Origin: an uncultured Pelagibacteraceae bacterium | GTDB taxonomy: Bacteria; Pseudomonadota; Alphaproteobacteria; Pelagibacterales; Pelagibacteraceae | DNA: 64,000 nucleotides | Assembly: GCA_902596925.1 (NCBI GenBank) | Contig: CACJVT010000002.1 | Span: 62,001-126,000 of the forward strand | Direction: 5' to 3' | Part shown: positions 5,695 through 64,000 of the stretch, piece after piece | How the letters are laid out: each line of letters begins with the position of its first letter | How positions within the stretch are numbered: position 1 is the stretch's first letter | Position numbers and translations under genes: made by a program | The notes under the pieces: model-generated | What the model saw: the letters and a program-made list of their open reading frames with translations, nothing else | What the model was told of the DNA's origin: nothing | Database searches by the model: none

Positions 5695-6948
5695 ATGAAA
5701 AATAAGTATTCAATATTTTCACTTATTAAAAACGCTTTTTCTTATCATGAAAATTGGGAGAAAGCTTGGAAAGATCCTGAGCCTAAAAAAGAATATGATG
5801 CAGTAATTGTTGGTGGTGGAGGACATGGTCTTGCAACTGCCTATTATCTAGCAAAAAAACATAACATGAAGAATATTGCTGTTGTGGAAAAAGGTTGGAT
5901 AGGAGGAGGAAATACTGGTCGAAATACCACAATAATAAGATCTAATTATTTATGGGATGCAAGTGCGGGTTTATATGACCATGCTCTTAAAATTTGGGAA
6001 GGTTTATCTCAAGAATTGAATTATAATGTTATGTTTAGTCAAAGAGGAGTTATGAATCTTGCACATAATTTGCAAGATGTTAGAGATTTAAAAAGAAGAA
6101 CTCACGCTAATAGATTGAATGGTATTGATGCAGTTTATTTAAATACTGAAGAAGTTAAAAAATTTTGTCCAATCATAAATACCTCGCAAGATATTCGTTA
6201 TCCAGTTTTAGGTGGAACTCTTCAAAGAAGAGCCGGTACAGCTAGGCATGATGCTGTTGCTTGGGGATACGCAAGAGGTGCTGATGAAATGGGTGTTGAT
6301 ATAATTCAAAATTGTGAAGTAAAAGGTATAAAAAGAAATGGTGATACAGTTGAAGGAATTGAAACAACTAAAGGATTTATCAAAACAAAAAAAATTGGAG
6401 TAGTAGCAGCTGGTCACTCCAGTGTAATAGCGAATATGGCTGGATTGAAATTACCTTTAGAAAGTAAACCACTTCAAGCTTTAGTGTCTGAACCAGTAAA
6501 ACCAATAATAGATACAGTTGTAATGTCTAACGCTGTTCATGCTTATGTCAGCCAATCTGATAAGGGAGAATTAGTTATTGGAGCAGGAACTGATGATTAT
6601 GTATCTTACTCTCAAAAAGGAAGTCATGATATTGTGGAAGGAACTTTAAATGCAATTTTAGAACTATATCCAATATTTAGTAGAATGAGAATGCTTCGTC
6701 AGTGGGGTGGAATAGTTGATATATGTCCTGATGCAAGTCCAATCATAAGTAAAACTTCAATTAAGGGTTTATACTTTAATTGTGGTTGGGGAACTGGAGG
6801 TTTTAAAGCAACACCTGGCTCAGGGGATTTATTTGCTCACACCATTGCAAATGACGAACCTCATAAATTAAATGCTGCGTTTAATATAAATAGATTTGTA
6901 AGTGGTGATCTAGTTGATGAACATGGTGCAGCCGCTGTTGCACACTAA
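5695..6948 (+). CDS. soxB: Sarcosine oxidase beta subunit
   Basis: FAD-containing subunit of heterotetrameric sarcosine oxidase, which oxidatively demethylates sarcosine to glycine. The 417-residue length is typical. Seen: the dinucleotide-binding motif GGGGHG (40-45), the following TAYYLAK helix, and [12 protein letters not shown], whose His187 I infer to be the residue that carries covalent FMN in characterised heterotetrameric enzymes. The conserved C-terminal [14 protein letters not shown] is present. It heads the operon soxB-soxD-soxA-soxG; its stop overlaps the soxD ATG by 1 nt. In SAR11-type cells this route supplies glycine and one-carbon units from methylated amines and osmolytes (established for the family, inferred here). 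Confidence 0.96.
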
Positions 6949-12838: not shown

Positions 12839-14171
12839 TATTCAAAAAATACCCAATAAATATTAGAACTGCAATTCCCATAAACCAATTTGTTACTAAA
12901 ATCGTATAAAAAATATCCTCATAATCCCCTCCTTTAATATTAATTACATACCATAAACTTAAAAATGGAAGAGCTGTTAATCTAAGAATACTTAGATAAA
13001 GACTGTACAATGGTTTTTTCACTGCTTGGAATACTGCAGTGGTTATAAAAAAAACAGGATAAATTGGGCCAATTAATGCAGCAACTTTTAGATATATAGC
13101 ACCATGCTTTATTGCCTCTTGGTTATCAGTAAATAATGAAACTAAAAACTCTGCACCTAAAAATATTATTATTCCTGCACATATCATAAAAGATGATCCA
13201 AACATTAAAGCTTTTCTGTACAATTCTCTCAATCTATCATAATTTTTTGCACCAAAATTTTGTCCCCCAATTGATAATACCGCTGTATTTAATCCAATTA
13301 CAGGAAGTAGAAAAACTTGTTCAATTCTTAAAGCAGCACCATAACCAGCAGTAGCTAAATCTCCAAATTGACCAATGAAGTAAAGGATGTTGAACAAACC
13401 AACACCAATCAACAACATGCTAAACATTACAGGAATTGTCTGATACAAGAGTTCACCAAGAAGATCAAATTTTGGAATAAAACACTCAGGCTTAAGATAT
13501 TGTTTTAATTCACAACAATAAACTTTATATGCTAAATACAAAAGACCAACAAACTGAGCCACTACAGTAGCTATTGCAAGTCCAGCTATACCAAATGCTG
13601 GAATAAAACCATAACCAAAAATAAATAATGGATTTAGAATAATATTTAAAAAGAAACTAAAAATTAAAACGTTTCTGTAACTTTTTGTATCCCCTTGCGC
13701 ATTTAGAGTTCCATTTAAGGAAATTTGTATCAAAACAATTATAGTTCCATAGAAAATTACATCTAGATATTTTCTAGTTAATATAATTGCCTCTTGGTCT
13801 GATCCCATAAGAGAAAGTAAAAAATCTGAAACATTTAAACCAAAAAAAGTAACTAGTATGGATAAAAAGATTGCAAAAATAATTGATTGAGCAACAAATA
13901 ATGACGCCTTCTTTTTATTATTAGCCCCTATATTATTTCCAATTAAAGTATTAGTTCCAGCAGTTAATCCAACACCTATTGCAATAATAGTAAAATAAAT
14001 TGGAAAAGATTTTGCGATCGCTGCTATTGCTTCAGCAGATATTCTTCCCGCGAACCATGTGTCTACTAGATTGTAAAAGGTTTGAAATAATGAACCAACA
14101 CTTGCTGGAATAGTAACTTTTCTCAATAAAAACCATATTGGATCTTTAGTTAATTTGAAAGATTGTGACAA
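12801..14171 (-). CDS. MATE-family multidrug/Na+ efflux transporter
   Basis: A 456-residue inner-membrane protein with about twelve hydrophobic segments in two similar halves. The start TIPASVGSLFQTFYNLVDTWFAGRIS is the typical MATE N-lobe helix 1, and the central IPVMFSMLLIGVGLFNILYF begins the C-lobe. The family exports cationic drugs or metabolites in exchange for H+ or Na+. The substrate cannot be read from sequence. It follows trhO by 8 nt on the same strand and overlaps the nuclease gene. Confidence 0.92.
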   Translation of the reverse strand: MSQSFKLTKDPIWFLLRKVTIPASVGSLFQTFYNLVDTWFAGRISAEAIAAIAKSFPIYFTIIAIGVGLTAGTNTLIGNNIGANNKKKASLFVAQSIIFAIFLSILVTFFGLNVSDFLLSLMGSDQEAIILTRKYLDVIFYGTIIVLIQISLNGTLNAQGDTKSYRNVLIFSFFLNIILNPLFIFGYGFIPAFGIAGLAIATVVAQFVGLLYLAYKVYCCELKQYLKPECFIPKFDLLGELLYQTIPVMFSMLLIGVGLFNILYFIGQFGDLATAGYGAALRIEQVFLLPVIGLNTAVLSIGGQNFGAKNYDRLRELYRKALMFGSSFMICAGIIIFLGAEFLVSLFTDNQEAIKHGAIYLKVAALIGPIYPVFFITTAVFQAVKKPLYSLYLSILRLTALPFLSLWYVINIKGGDYEDIFYTILVTNWFMGIAVLIFIGYFLNNVFKQNKSLFTY

Positions 14172-25643: not shown

Positions 25644-26945
25644 TTATCTTCCAATACTATAATATTTAAAACCTTGGTTTTTAATTTTCGTTGGAGAATA
25701 TATATTCCTCATATCATAAATAATAAATTTTTTACCTCTTGCTAGACTCTTAAAATTGATTGATTTAAAATCATTCCATTCTGTGTGAATTATTACAAGA
25801 TCTGAGCCTTTTAAAGACTCTCTTATATTATCAATATAAGAAACATTTTTAACTTTTGAGAATTCTTTTTTAATACCTGTTGGATCAAAATAATTTATCT
25901 TAGCACCCTTTTTTGATAATGCAGGTATCATTTTTAAACTAGAAGAGTCTCTCATATCATCTGTGTTAGCTTTAAATGTGACACCTAAGAAAGTTATTCT
26001 CTTATTATTAACTTTATTATTTAAAATTTTATAGACTTTATTTAGTAAAAAATTAGATCTATTTTCATTTGATTTTATGACAGATTTAATTACAGAAAGA
26101 TTTATTTTGAATTTATCAGCTGTAGAAGTTATAGCTTTAGTATCTTTAGGAAAACATGATCCACCATAACCAGGCCCTGCTCTTAAAAAACGACTCCCTA
26201 TTCTTTTATCTAAACCCATCCCAATTGAAATATCTTCTACATTTATTCCTGTTTTTTCACACAAATTTGCTATTTCATTAATGAATGTAATTTTCGTAGC
26301 CAAAAAAGCATTGGATGCATATTTGATTAATTCTGCAGCTCTTCTAGATGTGTGAATATATTGAGCTCCTTTAGAAATTAAAGGTGCATACAAATTATTC
26401 ATTACTCGGTTAGACTTTTTATCATTAGATCCGACAACAATTCTATCAGGAAAAGTAAAATCTCGGATAGCTTCACCTTCTCTTAAAAATTCTGGATTTG
26501 ATACAACAGAAAATTTATTCTTATTACTCTTTTTTTTTAATAAAATTTTTTCAATTTCATCACCAGTTGTCACAGGTACCGTTGATTTAGTGACTATTAT
26601 CTTAAATTTATTAATTGATAAACTTATCTCTTTTGCCACTTGAAAAATTTGACTTAGATCTGCGCTACTACCGCTTTTTTTTGTTGGTGTTCCAACACAA
26701 ATAAAAATTATATCAGATTCTTTTATTGATTTTTTTAAATCTGATGAAAATTTTAATCGTTTATTTTTATAATTTTTATTAACTAATTCAGTAAGTCCAG
26801 GTTCATATATAGGAATTTTTCCTTTTGAAAGCAGATCTATTTTTTTTAAATCTTTGTCAACACAAATCACATTATTTCCTAGATCAGCAAAGCATACACC
26901 ACTAACTAAACCTACATAACCTGTTCCTATCATACAAAGTTTCAT
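25644..26945 (-). CDS. ugd: UDP-glucose 6-dehydrogenase
   Basis: Oxidises UDP-glucose twice to UDP-glucuronate, a precursor of surface polysaccharides. 433 residues from the ATG at 26945, chosen because the NAD-binding motif MIGTGYVGLVSG then begins at residue 5 and the ATG overlaps the galU stop as ATGA; a longer frame extends 17 codons into galU and is unlikely. Seen: CVGTP, the catalytic Cys264 in GPGYGGSCFPKDTKA, and the C-terminal UDP-binding domain with LGVTFKANTDDMRDSSS. It pairs functionally with galU, which makes its substrate. Confidence 0.96.
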   Translation of the reverse strand: MKLCMIGTGYVGLVSGVCFADLGNNVICVDKDLKKIDLLSKGKIPIYEPGLTELVNKNYKNKRLKFSSDLKKSIKESDIIFICVGTPTKKSGSSADLSQIFQVAKEISLSINKFKIIVTKSTVPVTTGDEIEKILLKKKSNKNKFSVVSNPEFLREGEAIRDFTFPDRIVVGSNDKKSNRVMNNLYAPLISKGAQYIHTSRRAAELIKYASNAFLATKITFINEIANLCEKTGINVEDISIGMGLDKRIGSRFLRAGPGYGGSCFPKDTKAITSTADKFKINLSVIKSVIKSNENRSNFLLNKVYKILNNKVNNKRITFLGVTFKANTDDMRDSSSLKMIPALSKKGAKINYFDPTGIKKEFSKVKNVSYIDNIRESLKGSDLVIIHTEWNDFKSINFKSLARGKKFIIYDMRNIYSPTKIKNQGFKYYSIGR

Positions 26946-60342: not shown

Positions 60343-61089
60343 ATGAATAAATCATCATTTTTCATTGTTGGCCAACACGCTGTTATTGAGGCTCTCAAAA
60401 ATCCAGAAAGAAAGGTGTTGCGAGTTTTTTTAACAGAGGAAAGTAAAAAAAATATTCACAGACAAAGTCCAAATAAAAACCTATTAAATAATCTTAAAGT
60501 TTATTTTAAAACTAAAAAAGAATTAGACAAATATACCAGCAAAGAAAACCTTTTACACCAAGGATATGTTGCTGAAATAGAGCATCTTGATAAAGAAAAT
60601 CTTAAAGAATTTATTAAAGGAAAAAATAATATTACGTTAGCTTGTTTAGATGGAGTTACTGATCCTAGAAATATTGGAGCGTTAATTAGAAGTGCTGTAT
60701 CTTTTAATATTGATGGGGTTATAATTAAAGAAAGACATTTTCCAAAGGAAAGTAAATTGATGTATAAAGCTGCAAGTGGTTCAATGGAACACTTAAAGAT
60801 TTTTGAAGTTTCAAACATAAATTCTACTTTAAAAAATTTAAAAAATAAAAATTATTGGATTTACGGTTTTGATGGAAGGGGAGATAAAGATTTTACTGAA
60901 GTTGATTGGAAAGGTAACAACATACTTTTATTTGGATCAGAGGGCTTTGGTATGCATCACCATACATCTAAATATGCTGACTTTTTAGTAAGAATTGATA
61001 TTAGTAAGAAAATTGATAGTTTAAATATATCTAATAGTGCAGCAATTGTATTTCATCACTTAAGCTATTTAAAAAAAAGTGTTGATTAA
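60343..61089 (+). CDS. rlmB: TrmH-family rRNA/tRNA 2'-O-methyltransferase (RlmB-like)
   Basis: 248 residues of the SPOUT class. The N-terminal substrate-binding part begins FIVGQHAVIEALKNPERKVLR; the knotted SAM-binding domain shows LDGVTDPRNIGALIRSA, LLFGSEGFGMHHH and RIDISKKIDSLNISNSAAIVFHHL (parts), the three TrmH motifs. RlmB methylates G2251 of 23S rRNA in E. coli; I infer the same target from length and the start motif. It lies between the divergent tRNA-Tyr and the co-oriented tRNA-Thr. Confidence 0.93.
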   Translation: MNKSSFFIVGQHAVIEALKNPERKVLRVFLTEESKKNIHRQSPNKNLLNNLKVYFKTKKELDKYTSKENLLHQGYVAEIEHLDKENLKEFIKGKNNITLACLDGVTDPRNIGALIRSAVSFNIDGVIIKERHFPKESKLMYKAASGSMEHLKIFEVSNINSTLKNLKNKNYWIYGFDGRGDKDFTEVDWKGNNILLFGSEGFGMHHHTSKYADFLVRIDISKKIDSLNISNSAAIVFHHLSYLKKSVD

Positions 61090-61118
61090 TTTACAAATAA
61101 TTAATAATTATTGCGCAT

Positions 61119-61194
61119 GCCCTTGTAGCTCAGCTGGTAGAGCAATTGATTTGTAATCAATAGGTCCGCGGTTCGAATCCGTGCGGGGGCACCA
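61119..61194 (+). tRNA. tRNA-Thr(TGT)
   Basis: 76 nt: acceptor GCCCTTG with CGGGGGC (two G:U pairs), anticodon stem ATTGA/TCAAT around TTTGTAA, anticodon TGT; T loop TTCGAAT; CCA encoded at 61192-61194. Accessory genes start directly behind its 3' end, and a decayed copy of its 3' half lies at 63257-63306. Confidence 0.97.
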
Positions 61195-61205
61195 TCATTT
61201 AATAA

Positions 61206-61219
61206 AATTAATATTAATT
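61206..61219. terminator. 14-nt AT palindrome between tRNA-Thr and the convergent oxygenase gene
   Basis: AATTAATATTAATT is a perfect palindrome in the 39-nt gap after tRNA-Thr. It might end transcription of either side but has no G:C pairs and no loop, so support is weak. Confidence 0.2.
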
Positions 61220-61233
61220 ATTTAAAAAAAATA

Positions 61234-61977
61234 TTACTGATTTAACATCCATTTAACATTGTTAAATGCTGTGTAGCTACCGTAAAGAAATATTCTCTTT
61301 TCGTCTTGAAAAGAATTAAAGTTTTCAACACCATGTATTGAGTCTGGGCTGGATAAAAAAACTATTAATTTACCAAATTCAGGTTTTATTTTAGTAAATA
61401 AATCTAAATCATCTTTCTTTGGAAATCTCTCATAAAAATTATTATTATCATTTTTATATTTGTAAATTTCTAAAGATCCTCCACTTTTTATATTAGTTGT
61501 ATTTAAATAAAGTAAAAAACTCAGAATTCGACTATGTTTATCATGATGAGGTTCTCTTGAGTAATTTTTTTCAGCTATCGAAAAATCCATCTCTAAGTAA
61601 AATTTTTTTTTATACAAAAAAGGAAGAAATTGATTAATTTTTTTATCTTTTTTAGTTATTTTATTAAGAAATGTAGTATAGTTATTTTTTAAATCAAATT
61701 TACTTAGTGAATTATTTAATTCATTAAATAAAAAATTATAGGTACTTTCTTTATTAAAAAAATTAAAAATATGATTACAATATTTTAGTTTTGTAAAAAA
61801 GTTACTTGAATATTTATAACGGCCACCCATCACCATTTCAGTATTTTCTTTTCTTTTAATTTCTAAAATTTCATTACAGATAAGATTTTGATTTTCTTTC
61901 TTTAAAAAATCATCTGATATATCTGATATCATCAAAGGAAAGGGGTTAGTCAAAATTTTTTTATTTTTAAAATCCAT
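61234..61977 (-). CDS. 2-oxoglutarate/Fe(II) oxygenase-like protein
   Basis: 247 residues. The iron-binding triad of the prolyl-4-hydroxylase-type fold is visible: His144-x-Asp146 in EPHHDKHSR, distal His215 in SSPDSIHGVENF, and Arg228 in DEKRIFLYG, which would bind 2-oxoglutarate. LLYLNTTNIKSGGSLEIY between them is the typical double-stranded beta-helix strand pair. The substrate is unknown; such enzymes hydroxylate sugars, lipids or proteins. The gene starts 2 nt after the SGNH gene stops, so the two form one unit. It is very rich in Asn, Lys, Ile and Phe. It lies in the segment between tRNA-Thr and its decayed copy, which suggests horizontal gain. Confidence 0.78.
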   Translation of the reverse strand: MDFKNKKILTNPFPLMISDISDDFLKKENQNLICNEILEIKRKENTEMVMGGRYKYSSNFFTKLKYCNHIFNFFNKESTYNFLFNELNNSLSKFDLKNNYTTFLNKITKKDKKINQFLPFLYKKKFYLEMDFSIAEKNYSREPHHDKHSRILSFLLYLNTTNIKSGGSLEIYKYKNDNNNFYERFPKKDDLDLFTKIKPEFGKLIVFLSSPDSIHGVENFNSFQDEKRIFLYGSYTAFNNVKWMLNQ

Positions 61978-61979
61978 AA

Positions 61980-63089
61980 TTAGTTAAAATCATTTTGTAT
62001 AAGATCATAAATATTTTCAGCAATCTTTTTATTTGCATAAGGAGAATAATGAACTTTGTCAATATATCCTAACTTTTTAGAATTTTTGAGTGCATCTGAT
62101 ATATTTGTTATTCCTTTAACTTCTTTTAAAACATTCCACCTTTTTTTCATATAATTTATAGAACTTTCATTACCAACTAAATTTTTAATAACTCCACGAC
62201 TTTGTTTTTTGAAATATACCCCGTGTATTGTAGCAAATGGTTGTAAGAGATTATAGCAGTTTAACTCATAATTTTTACAAATACTATTTCTGATAACTAT
62301 ATTTTTTTCTAAAATTACTTTAATATTTTTGAAAAACTCATTTGAGTAATTTGTTTTTGTTTTAGAAATATTATTTTTTTTTATTATTCTTTTAAAAAAT
62401 TGATTTATTGTTAAACTATCAAGAAAAATTAAAAATCCTATATTTTGCATATTCCAGAATTTTTGATTTGAAATACTGTATAATTGAGTGAGAAGAGCTG
62501 TATTTCTAGGTTTACTATCTCCATGCTCATTAATACCATCTAAAAAAATGATAATGTCTTTTGACTTAATGTTATTATTGAGAATATGTTTTTGAAACAA
62601 TATTGTCTCTTGAAATGAAAAATAGCTTCTTCTGCCATAATTTTTCACACAAATATTTTTCTTATCATTAATTAACATTTGACCCAGATAACTTCCTATG
62701 GTTTGACTATCTGTTACACCAGCACCAAAAGTCGTACTGCCACCGTACAAAAATATAAATTTTTCACATTCTGTTGGCGAAATTGTTTTTCTTCCTAATT
62801 CAGGGTTCACATTAACGAACTTATTATTATAGCCTTGATTTTCTGCGAAACCTAGAAAAGGTGCATACTCGTATTTTCTAGTTGTGATGTATGTTTCAAT
62901 ATAAAGGGTTAATGCATCTTGTTTATTTAGGTTTAAAGCTTTTCTGACTATTTCATCAAATGGTTCGAAATCTTTAAACTTATATTTTGTTCTAATTTCC
63001 CAAATCCAACCTAATAAAAAATTTAAAACTATAAATAGCAAAATCGAAATTAAAAAAACATTCGCAATTTGTTGAATTTTATTTTTCAT
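61980..63089 (-). CDS. Membrane-anchored SGNH/GDSL-hydrolase-like protein
   Basis: 369 residues from the ATG at 63089, chosen because a signal-anchor helix (about 9-30) then follows directly; an open frame extends 39 codons further upstream without resemblance to a protein start. Four SGNH blocks can be seen: Ser118 in YGGSTTFGAGV (block I), the Gly of KNYGRRSYFS (block II), Asn187 in FLDGINEHGD (block III), and Asp344-x-x-His347 in IDKVHYSPYA (block V). Such proteins remove or move acyl groups, often on exported polysaccharide. With the neighbouring oxygenase and the nucleotide-sugar gene this points to surface-glycan modification (inference). Confidence 0.75.
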   Translation of the reverse strand: MKNKIQQIANVFLISILLFIVLNFLLGWIWEIRTKYKFKDFEPFDEIVRKALNLNKQDALTLYIETYITTRKYEYAPFLGFAENQGYNNKFVNVNPELGRKTISPTECEKFIFLYGGSTTFGAGVTDSQTIGSYLGQMLINDKKNICVKNYGRRSYFSFQETILFQKHILNNNIKSKDIIIFLDGINEHGDSKPRNTALLTQLYSISNQKFWNMQNIGFLIFLDSLTINQFFKRIIKKNNISKTKTNYSNEFFKNIKVILEKNIVIRNSICKNYELNCYNLLQPFATIHGVYFKKQSRGVIKNLVGNESSINYMKKRWNVLKEVKGITNISDALKNSKKLGYIDKVHYSPYANKKIAENIYDLIQNDFN

Positions 63090-63256
63090 TAATTTAAGAC
63101 AATTTACCTCAAAAAAATTAGATCTACTACAAAATACTCTATCATAAATTAAATATGTGATATCAATATTTACTTTTTGTATTACATTCAAATTATTGAT
63201 AACCAAAAAATATTTACAACTAATATTGAAAACAATTATTTGATTTAACTAATATA

Positions 63257-63306
63257 GTTGATTTACAATTAATAAAACCATAGTTTTAATCTGTGCGGGA
63301 GCAGCT
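63257..63306 (+). pseudogene. Decayed direct copy of the 3' half of tRNA-Thr (attachment-site remnant)
   Basis: Aligned without gaps to 61145-61194 (anticodon stem to the CCA end of tRNA-Thr), 34 of 50 positions agree. Of 16 differences, 12 are transitions and 11 change G or C to A or T, as expected for a dead copy in AT-biased DNA. The longest shared blocks are TTGATTT, CAAT/AATA and GTGCGGG. Upstream of 63257 the similarity stops, so there is no 5' half. Same strand as tRNA-Thr, 2.1 kb downstream, ending exactly at the stop of the next gene. This is the layout left by integration into a tRNA 3' end. Not a working tRNA. Confidence 0.65.
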
Positions 63307-64000
63307 CTAATTATTAAAATAATCTTTTAATTGTTTAAGACTGTAATTGTACATATCTTTTTTCTTGTAATATGCATCATACCAATTAACTGTTAATTTA
63401 ATTGTATTTTCTAAATTAAGTTTTGGCTTATAATTGATTTTTCTTTTTGCATTTAAACTTGATAATCTTAAGATTGAACTTTCGTATTGTTTTTTTTTTT
63501 TAATAATTACTTTTAGTTTTCTGTAACTACCAATTTTTTTTATCAGACTAACTAATTTAATTACTTTAATATTTGATTTTAAGTTTGGAGCAATATTAAA
63601 AATTTCTGGTTCATTAGAATTTTTTGTCTTTTTTATTATAGCAAGATTAAAAAAATTTAATATTTCAAAAATATGTTGCCATGGTCTTATTGCATTAGGA
63701 TTTCGTATTTGTATCTTTTTAAAACTATATAGACACCTAAAAATGTCAGGAATTATTCTATATTTATTCCAATCACCACCACCTATAATATTGCCTGCGC
63801 GTAAAATAATTATTTCTATTTTTTTTTTATAAATTGATGATTTATATGTGGTAGTTATTATATCCTGACATGATTTACTTGAACTATATGGATCTATTCC
63901 ACCCAAAGATGAGTTTTCATTTAAAATCTTTCCATTTAAATTTCGATAAACTTTATCTGAAGTAAAAATAATTATTTTTTTGATTGATTTAATTTCTTTA
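63307..64000 (-). CDS. rfbG: CDP-glucose 4,6-dehydratase-like NAD-dependent epimerase/dehydratase (5' end outside window)
   Basis: The last 231 or so residues of an extended short-chain dehydrogenase/reductase. The frame is open to the right edge, so the N-terminus with the NAD-binding motif is missing. Seen: IIIFTSDKVYRN, the catalytic Tyr-x3-Lys in GGIDPYSSSKS, then RAGNIIGGGDWNKYRIIPDIFR and IRNPNAIRPWQH, a set of motifs that I associate with CDP-glucose 4,6-dehydratase. The enzyme starts synthesis of CDP-linked dideoxy or branched sugars for surface polysaccharide. The stop codon lies directly next to the tRNA-Thr remnant. Confidence 0.85.
   Translation of the reverse strand, partial: KEIKSIKKIIIFTSDKVYRNLNGKILNENSSLGGIDPYSSSKSCQDIITTTYKSSIYKKKIEIIILRAGNIIGGGDWNKYRIIPDIFRCLYSFKKIQIRNPNAIRPWQHIFEILNFFNLAIIKKTKNSNEPEIFNIAPNLKSNIKVIKLVSLIKKIGSYRKLKVIIKKKKQYESSILRLSSLNAKRKINYKPKLNLENTIKLTVNWYDAYYKKKDMYNYSLKQLKDYFNN

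Follow-up and report, generated by a model that had tools for sequence, protein, structure and literature searches.

A probable old integrase-less cassette at the tRNA-Thr gene of a Pelagibacteraceae bacterium and its candidate family of mobilizable relatives

The tRNA-Thr gene, its displaced 3′ half and the genes between them

Near the right end of the window (the whole 64,000-nt stretch of DNA that was analysed) lies a gene for tRNA-Thr(TGT) (61119-61194, + strand; Rfam tRNA model, 70.9 bits), the putative attachment gene of the arrangement described here. Positions 30-76 of this tRNA (61148-61194, + strand) form a 47-nt attachment core that recurs in relatives, and a second, decayed copy of the same tRNA positions, in register with the copies of the relatives, is found at 63260-63306 (+ strand) and is probably an old tRNA 3′ half that was displaced. 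The genome that contains the window is 1.12 Mb in size, and its gene content suggests a member of SAR11. Very small genomes are typical of such bacteria, and to our knowledge little is understood of how they gain genes.

A first-pass annotation of the window had described an ungapped match of 34 of 50 positions between 63257-63306 and the 3′ half of tRNA-Thr at 61145-61194, with 12 transitions among the 16 mismatches and 11 changes from G/C to A/T, and all of these figures were reproduced. On the + strand of the window, only the tRNA-Thr gene itself scores higher than this segment; the next-best matches to the tRNA 3′ half reach 25/50 on the + strand and 27/50 on the − strand. Shuffling, which the annotation had named as a means of exposing a chance match, gave at most 28 matches when the dinucleotides of 61195-63500 were shuffled (0/2000 reached 34) and at most 30 when the whole window was shuffled and both strands were scored (0/100 reached 34). 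A permissive covariance-model search of 61050-63500 with Rfam, also proposed there, did not call the remnant a tRNA. When 63190-63420 was searched in 200 other genomes of the genus, no second full-length copy of the decayed segment was found; the matches were short and mostly AT-rich, with exceptions that consist of an arm plus a core (e.g., G116 C6:6940-7052). Relatives that carry the 63257-63306 segment without tRNA-linked cargo, which would speak against an insertion, were not encountered in these 200 genomes, the search being not exhaustive. The far boundary is marked by a direct repeat of the tRNA 3′ end, as in tRNA-anchored integrative elements.

Two genes and no integrase lie between the two copies, as the annotation had stated. 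The first (61234-61977, − strand), an open frame, belongs to the 2OG-Fe(II) oxygenase family (PF13640, E 1.4e-10), in agreement with its earlier label. The second (61980-63089, − strand), also open, encodes 369 amino acids if translation starts at the ATG at 63089; its earlier label, SGNH-like, corresponds to motifs that we take, by eye only, to be those of SGNH hydrolases, the protein having no Pfam or NCBIfam match and a best E of 0.031 in a PDB search. No homologue of either cargo gene was present in the fetched loci of relatives. This cargo is rare: among the 200 other genomes, relatives of the SGNH-like protein occur in three (37-41% identity) and a relative of the oxygenase in 36 (34-45% identity), none of them on the contig of the Thr array where contigs were compared.

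The ends of this cassette were located with profiles made from 39 cassettes of other genomes. Among 63,956 positions on the + strand of the window, the left-arm profile scores best at 61195 (1/20,000 shuffles was as good), at the start of a decayed left arm (61195-61239, + strand), and the right-arm profile scores best at 63215 (0/20,000 shuffles), within a decayed right arm that adjoins the second core copy (63205-63259, + strand). A right-arm sequence model, R1, which was built from 12 cassettes with the window excluded and whose E-values are rough, has its best window match at 63205-63257 (E 0.008). Because the two profile peaks fall exactly at the predicted cassette ends, the window cassette has both arms, decayed like the displaced core. 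A pattern search of the cassette found no tandem arm repeats. A cis-mobilizable element (CIME) would have no integration or transfer genes but would keep its attL and attR ends; in the window copy both ends are recognisable but decayed, and in many relatives they are intact.

The first gene beyond the cassette (63307-63999, − strand) belongs to the NAD-dependent epimerase family and continues past the end of the window. The annotation had suggested that the insertion explains why variable surface genes begin directly behind this tRNA. This idea is supported in part: the first 2.1 kb entered in such a way, past 63307 no further right arm was found up to the contig end, and the same route of entry for the surface genes there is conjectural.

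Core-bounded cassettes across the genus

A search with rlmB and tRNA-Thr in 60 relatives and the window's own genome revealed, among the matches listed, that the intact tRNA-Thr is followed in many genomes by near-perfect copies (47-54 nt) of its own 3′ half. With up to three mismatches allowed, at least one copy of the 47-nt core is present in 287/399 genomes of the genus and at least two in 99/399, normally including the tRNA itself; the latter count was read by eye from a table, takes in copies anywhere in the genome, leaves decayed copies uncounted and refers to genomes that are mostly incomplete. Within these 99, G095 has one core at another place, and G162 and G177 have cores on both strands. 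Beyond the tRNA there are four cores in G059, two each in G004, G016, G028 and G031, and five in G130, the last of which has decayed to 31/47.

Comparison of occupied and empty sites in relatives shows serial insertion. To the right of the fourth core of G059, counting the tRNA as the first, lies the same sequence that directly follows the tRNA in G044, and the second core of G040 stands in the same relation to G046; in G018, G021 and G027, a nadK-family gene directly adjoins tRNA-Thr. Empty sites are thus available for cassettes of relatives, and for the window cassette there is a rough counterpart only, in G022, where a 51% identical epimerase lies behind the tRNA. When the farthest displaced core was compared with the nearest in 17 multi-core arrays, the farthest was more decayed in eight, less decayed in two and equally decayed in seven. 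The tRNA-Thr locus may therefore keep a record of insertions, the farthest core being the more decayed in eight of the ten arrays that differ. Replacement of the tRNA 3′ half by an incoming element should leave displaced cores whose T-loop alleles are unlike that of the present tRNA. Such alleles were seen in 12/58 displaced cores, and eight remain after removal of those in G095, where the stretch contains no complete tRNA, and in G071, G116 and G118, which look like decay.

The format was examined in 71 core-bounded cassettes from 49 genomes, a sample that is not random: the nearest relatives and the window account for 16, genomes retrieved for their R1 matches for 24, and the other 31 stem from 20 genomes hand-picked among the 99 (in several cases because their cores are widely spaced) and from L153, which was found via its integrase; genomes of family f2 were left out. 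The cassettes have a median size of 1.7 kb (range 0.73-9.9 kb; 56/71 below 3 kb). ORFs of 60 amino acids or more number one to three in 58/71, and in 63 all of the ORFs of this size lie on the minus strand. The last minus-strand ORF starts exactly 94 nt from the right core in 28/70 cassettes and 91-96 nt from it in 42/70. An integrase was found in 2/71, which is a minimum, because the integrase profile missed the integrase of G063 and the PF00589 search covered only 101 genomes.

The right arm contains a tandem repeat with units about 11 nt apart, which was found by pattern in 23/40 cassettes and lies 81 nt from the core in 22 of them and 80 nt from it in one. In 18 cassettes the hexamers of the left and right arms agree at 102/108 letters, as against a permuted mean of 88 (0/20,000), and on the last three hexamer letters the agreement is 48 as against 34 (2/20,000); this permutation test overstates independence, because cassettes that are related may have inherited their two ends together. 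When profiles trained on 39 cassettes were applied to the 31 held out, the right arm was recognized in 17/31, the left in 21/31, both in 15/31 and at least one in 23/31. These figures are preferred to the in-sample ones (right arm 57/71, left arm 52/71), which score training data. The eight held-out cassettes with neither arm comprise the two integrase-bearing ones and six with sizes of 3.5-9.9 kb; these may represent a different type. R1 has matches in 33/101 genomes, and 35 of the 45 checked (46 in all, G076 being left out) adjoin a Thr core of at least 30/47, or 23/33 without the 12 from which R1 was built.

Cargo functions are predicted from family names. Pfam and PADLOC were applied to 67 proteins, namely the largest ORF of 66/71 cassettes (those of AH326M17, G010, G063, G112 cassette 1 and G268 being left out) and the second ORF of the window. 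The 25 commonest Pfam families include a pilin-type N-terminal motif in five proteins, Mrr_cat_2 in three, MrcB_N, autotransporter and trypsin-like families in two each and an MmeI-type enzyme in one, and PADLOC reported restriction and candidate defence families, by family name only. Thirteen of 30 proteins scanned singly, two of which are landmark genes rather than typical cargo, have no Pfam match.

Near-identity across species is seen in some cassettes. Between their cores, G130 cassette 4 and G268 cassette 1 share 99.9% identity over all 1075 nt, as against 76.8% in the rlmB flank, the assemblies being taken as given; the two occupy different array positions and the sequences right outside their cores differ. 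These sequences suggest a recent transfer of this 1.1-kb cassette between the two species. Cassette identity also exceeds that of the flank in G318/G353 (93.6% over the full length vs 77.4% for rlmB) and G250/G329 (93.4% over 960 nt vs 75.8%). There is little excess in G017/G031 (79.0 vs 78.0%), G173/G391 (82.7 vs 81.7%) and G031/G085 (79.3 vs 76.2%), and in G112/G117 the cassette is more diverged (69.6%) than the flank (91.7%). In total, 17 pairs were compared, five of which lack a flank match, and a further pair, G218/G394, was left out. Profile searches found no integrase in the near-identical units of G130/G268, G318/G353 and G250/G329.

Integrase-bearing elements on the same core

Larger elements that carry an integrase use the same core. 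The single-cell genome AH-326-M17 contains a 6.9-kb element (L153) with a Thr core of 47/47 at both ends, an integrase and a primase; its integrase gene starts 103 nt from the right core, near where the cassettes start their cargo, and the element has negative scores on both arm profiles. G063 harbors a 7.7-kb element on this core, with an integrase near the left end, and in G272/L154 an integrase of the L153 kind, cut by the contig end, lies beside a Thr core. The core is also present in 15 viral contigs, where a tyrosine integrase adjoins it in seven; six of the others appear to contain a complete tRNA-Thr, and in two the core lies at the contig end. One viral contig with this core, L077, has matches to an integrase, a primase and a terminase small subunit.

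The integrase family, fragments included, is present in 21/399 genomes. Outside Thr sites, the closest relative of the L077 integrase (76% identical) is that of L152, in a 17-kb stretch without a Thr core, so the family and the site are not strictly linked. At three further loci (L157, L158 and L160), related integrases are preceded by TTGTGACA-type tandem repeats, which are of the same kind as those in the cassettes, together with the 3′ half of tRNA-Met. In G396, a left end that by eye is of the cassette type is followed by cargo and by a right end that holds 78 aa of an integrase N-terminus next to a 39/47 core, a combination that joins the cassettes and the integrase elements.

No integrase with arms of the common TGTGAC/TGTGTA type was found at tRNA-Thr. 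Among the viral contigs, exact cassette-arm patterns were absent, and a looser left-end pattern matched six contigs, none of which has a Thr core at the match. A comparison of R1 with 18 integrase-bearing loci gave one weak match, in G148, which does not adjoin a Thr core. Two other candidates were discarded: a weak integrase-like match in G112 proved to be an unrelated 149-aa ORF, and an Xer-like recombinase beside a glycosyltransferase-like gene at two loci (318 and 334 aa; NCBIfam match for one) was not taken as a helper, because nothing connects it to the Thr core.

A probable route of insertion, its alternatives and related systems

The stretch 61148-63306 is, with good confidence, an old and decayed cassette without an integrase that was inserted at tRNA-Thr and belongs to a candidate cis-mobilizable family that would be moved in trans; the held-out result and the L152 locus lower this confidence slightly. 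The conclusion of the first-pass annotation that this is an old, tRNA-anchored insertion devoid of a recombinase is thus supported, and in relatives other cargo occupies the interval between this tRNA and the repeat. Cassettes of the family run from a core through a left arm, cargo that is mostly encoded on the minus strand and thus opposite to the tRNA, and a right arm of about 94 nt to a second core. A circular form with one core and two arms would recombine with the tRNA-Thr 3′ half by site-specific recombination of the tyrosine-integrase type; the incoming core would rebuild the tRNA, and the old 3′ half would be displaced to the far end, at 63260-63306 in the window. The present 3′ half of tRNA-Thr (61119-61194) would then derive from the last incoming element. 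Integration and excision are presumably supplied in trans by the integrase family of the larger elements with the same core, and small cassettes of this kind, which are common in the genus, would stack up at tRNA-Thr. The circular intermediate, the trans-acting integrase and a means of passing DNA between cells are parts that this route presupposes. In the window copy, decay of the arms and of the displaced core suggests that the cassette is now fixed, and the two cargo frames are still open. Counting against the proposed route are the two of 17 multi-core arrays in which the more decayed core is nearer to the tRNA, the failure to find an integrase with the common arm type at tRNA-Thr, the negative arm scores of L153, the L152 locus, the eight held-out cassettes with neither arm, the tandem repeats missed by the pattern search in the window, the absence of window-cargo homologues from the fetched loci, and the finding that, where contigs were compared, none of the cargo relatives in other genomes lies on the contig of the Thr array.

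Cores and arms also offer repeated homology, and it is conceivable that cassettes are exchanged through them by homologous recombination after DNA uptake or transduction, with no integrase involved. Consistent with such exchange, no matching helper integrase was seen, and two pairs of cassettes (G029/G130 and G099/G152) are alike at one end and different inside. We regard this as rather unlikely, because serial tandem addition, arm repeats at a fixed distance and the agreement of left and right arms fit an integrase better, and because the near-identical cassettes of G130 and G268 differ in sequence immediately outside their cores.

Alternatively, each cassette might be a prophage or integrative element that decayed independently, having lost its integrase after insertion as in classical CIME decay, with none of them mobile. 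The truncated integrase retained in G396 would be a relic of such decay, and the ends of family f2 resemble the flanks of integrase-carrying viral contigs (3/11 left ends and 1/11 right ends, better than 100 single-letter shuffles). Independent decay is nevertheless quite unlikely to have left so many integrase-free cassettes in one format, with the 94-nt spacing in 28/70 and 91-96 nt in 42/70, or cassettes that are near-identical in different species. The annotation's statement that the mobility genes are gone probably gives the wrong history: an integrase is found in only 2/71 cassettes and is absent also from the recently moved ones, so the window cassette probably arrived without one of its own. 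That the 63257-63306 match is due to chance or to an unrelated pseudo-tRNA fragment, as its mere 34/50 identity in AT-rich DNA and the lack of a covariance-model match might suggest, is scarcely credible, because shuffles never reach 34 and two arm profiles from foreign genomes flank both cores in register.

Beyond the probable insertion of a trans-mobilized cassette in the window, a broader proposal is tentative and somewhat closer to being wrong than right, namely that the family is a tRNA-based counterpart of integrons. Standard integrase-free cassettes would be written into and removed from tRNA-Thr by helper integrases in trans; their cargo would stand at a fixed distance behind an arm, at about the place where the integrase gene begins in a larger element, and they would circulate between species as single units that supply restriction, pilin-like and surface genes. 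Integron gene cassettes are likewise recombinase-free, stack at a fixed site and have an attC hairpin. The likeness is one of outline, recombinase-free cassettes stacked at one site; unlike in integrons, the core is a tRNA half with arms instead of an attC hairpin, and in most genomes no integrase was found at the site. A compact and mostly recombinase-free format at one conserved tRNA would provide a specific, testable path by which genes could pass from species to species.

Among established classes, the window cassette has no integrase of its own, as an integrative element would, no tyrosine recombinase inside its tRNA boundary, as a tycheposon would, and not the integrase, replication and packaging genes of PICI-like phage satellites. 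The islands at ssrA of Dehalococcoides, as far as described in the text available, are similar in being tandem, bounded by the 3′ end of an RNA gene and repeats, and in many cases without an integration module; they are possible CIMEs, and movement together with neighbours that have common att sites has been proposed for them (PMC3146451, PMC5704250). They differ in having a serine recombinase and a 20-bp repeat at ssrA, with an integration module in 16 islands and none in 15, whereas the present cassettes have a 47-nt tRNA-Thr core, a median size of 1.7 kb, common arms at fixed spacing and an integrase in 2/71. The flexible island fGI-2 of Methylopumilus, also from a streamlined aquatic bacterium, is described as additive and marked by tRNA-end repeats; its host, tRNA and core are others, and in the parts of that source available neither arms nor a cassette format nor a test of transfer is described (PMC10872708). 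Tycheposons, as described in the same source, are likewise tRNA-bordered elements of marine bacteria; they carry a tyrosine recombinase and are 4-200 kb in size (PMC10872708), whereas 56/71 present cassettes are below 3 kb and in nearly all no recombinase was found. In SAR11, the HVR2/O-chain cluster contains variable surface genes and HVR2 is said to include an integrase gene; by the accounts available it lies between 23S and 5S rRNA and is linked to homologous recombination, not to tRNA-Thr cores (PMC2217521, PMC11898729).

Tandem RNA-gene-anchored islands without integration modules, and tRNA-end repeats that mark an additive island, were thus already known. A search of open-licence papers found no report of such arrays in SAR11, and the elements that appear to be new here are the standard cassette format, the arms at fixed spacing with agreeing letters, the scarcity of integrases and the near-identical cassettes in different species. 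Outside the genus, sequences 80-90% identical to the core occur in 25 records of annotated phages, in tRNA-Thr genes or at unannotated places, and the phages concerned are those of Erwinia, Salmonella, Hafnia and Acinetobacter.

A candidate helper for the second cassette family

The second cassette family (f2) may be served by a helper, that is, an integrase of a larger element acting in trans, of another type. The left ends of three cassettes of this family, in L046 (G042), L048 (G040) and L055 (G059), are similar to the flanks of the integrase-carrying viral contigs L138, L142 and L143, and a different type of helper is therefore possible for this family. A further viral contig, L077 (IMG/VR 3300017731_002668; 8.9 kb), has the Thr core, the attachment core formed by the 3′ half of tRNA-Thr, and gives family matches to an integrase, a primase/helicase and a terminase small subunit; it may represent either a phage satellite or part of a phage. 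Judged by sequence, a sister element family is found at a different tRNA, tRNA-Met, in L157, L158 and L160, where TTGTGACA tandem repeats and a tRNA-Met 3′ half stand before integrase genes.

Tandem cargo genes and an isolated right-arm match

Cassettes 3 and 5 of L170 (G130) carry 7 and 11 tandem ORFs, respectively, each of approximately 120–180 amino acids. N-terminal motifs of the pilin type occur in comparable ORFs of other loci, and the two units are possibly pilin gene cassettes. In L134 (G102), a weak match to the right-arm model near record position 26141 is followed by a truncated core, and neither tRNA-Thr nor a full core was found in the surrounding 13-kb stretch.

Unusual arrangements of tRNA-Thr and rlmB

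A truncated 5′ copy of tRNA-Thr of approximately 45 nt lies behind rlmB in L057 (G019; 12974–13018) and in L036 (G026; 2372–2416). In G019, the truncated copy at rlmB is followed, at a distance of 6.3 kb, by an intact tRNA-Thr (6577–6652), which reverses the usual order. In contig C3 of both G022 and G034, rlmB and tRNA-Thr are several kb apart. The intervening DNA is 5′ of the tRNA, a position in which integration at the 3′ half is not expected to leave an insert.
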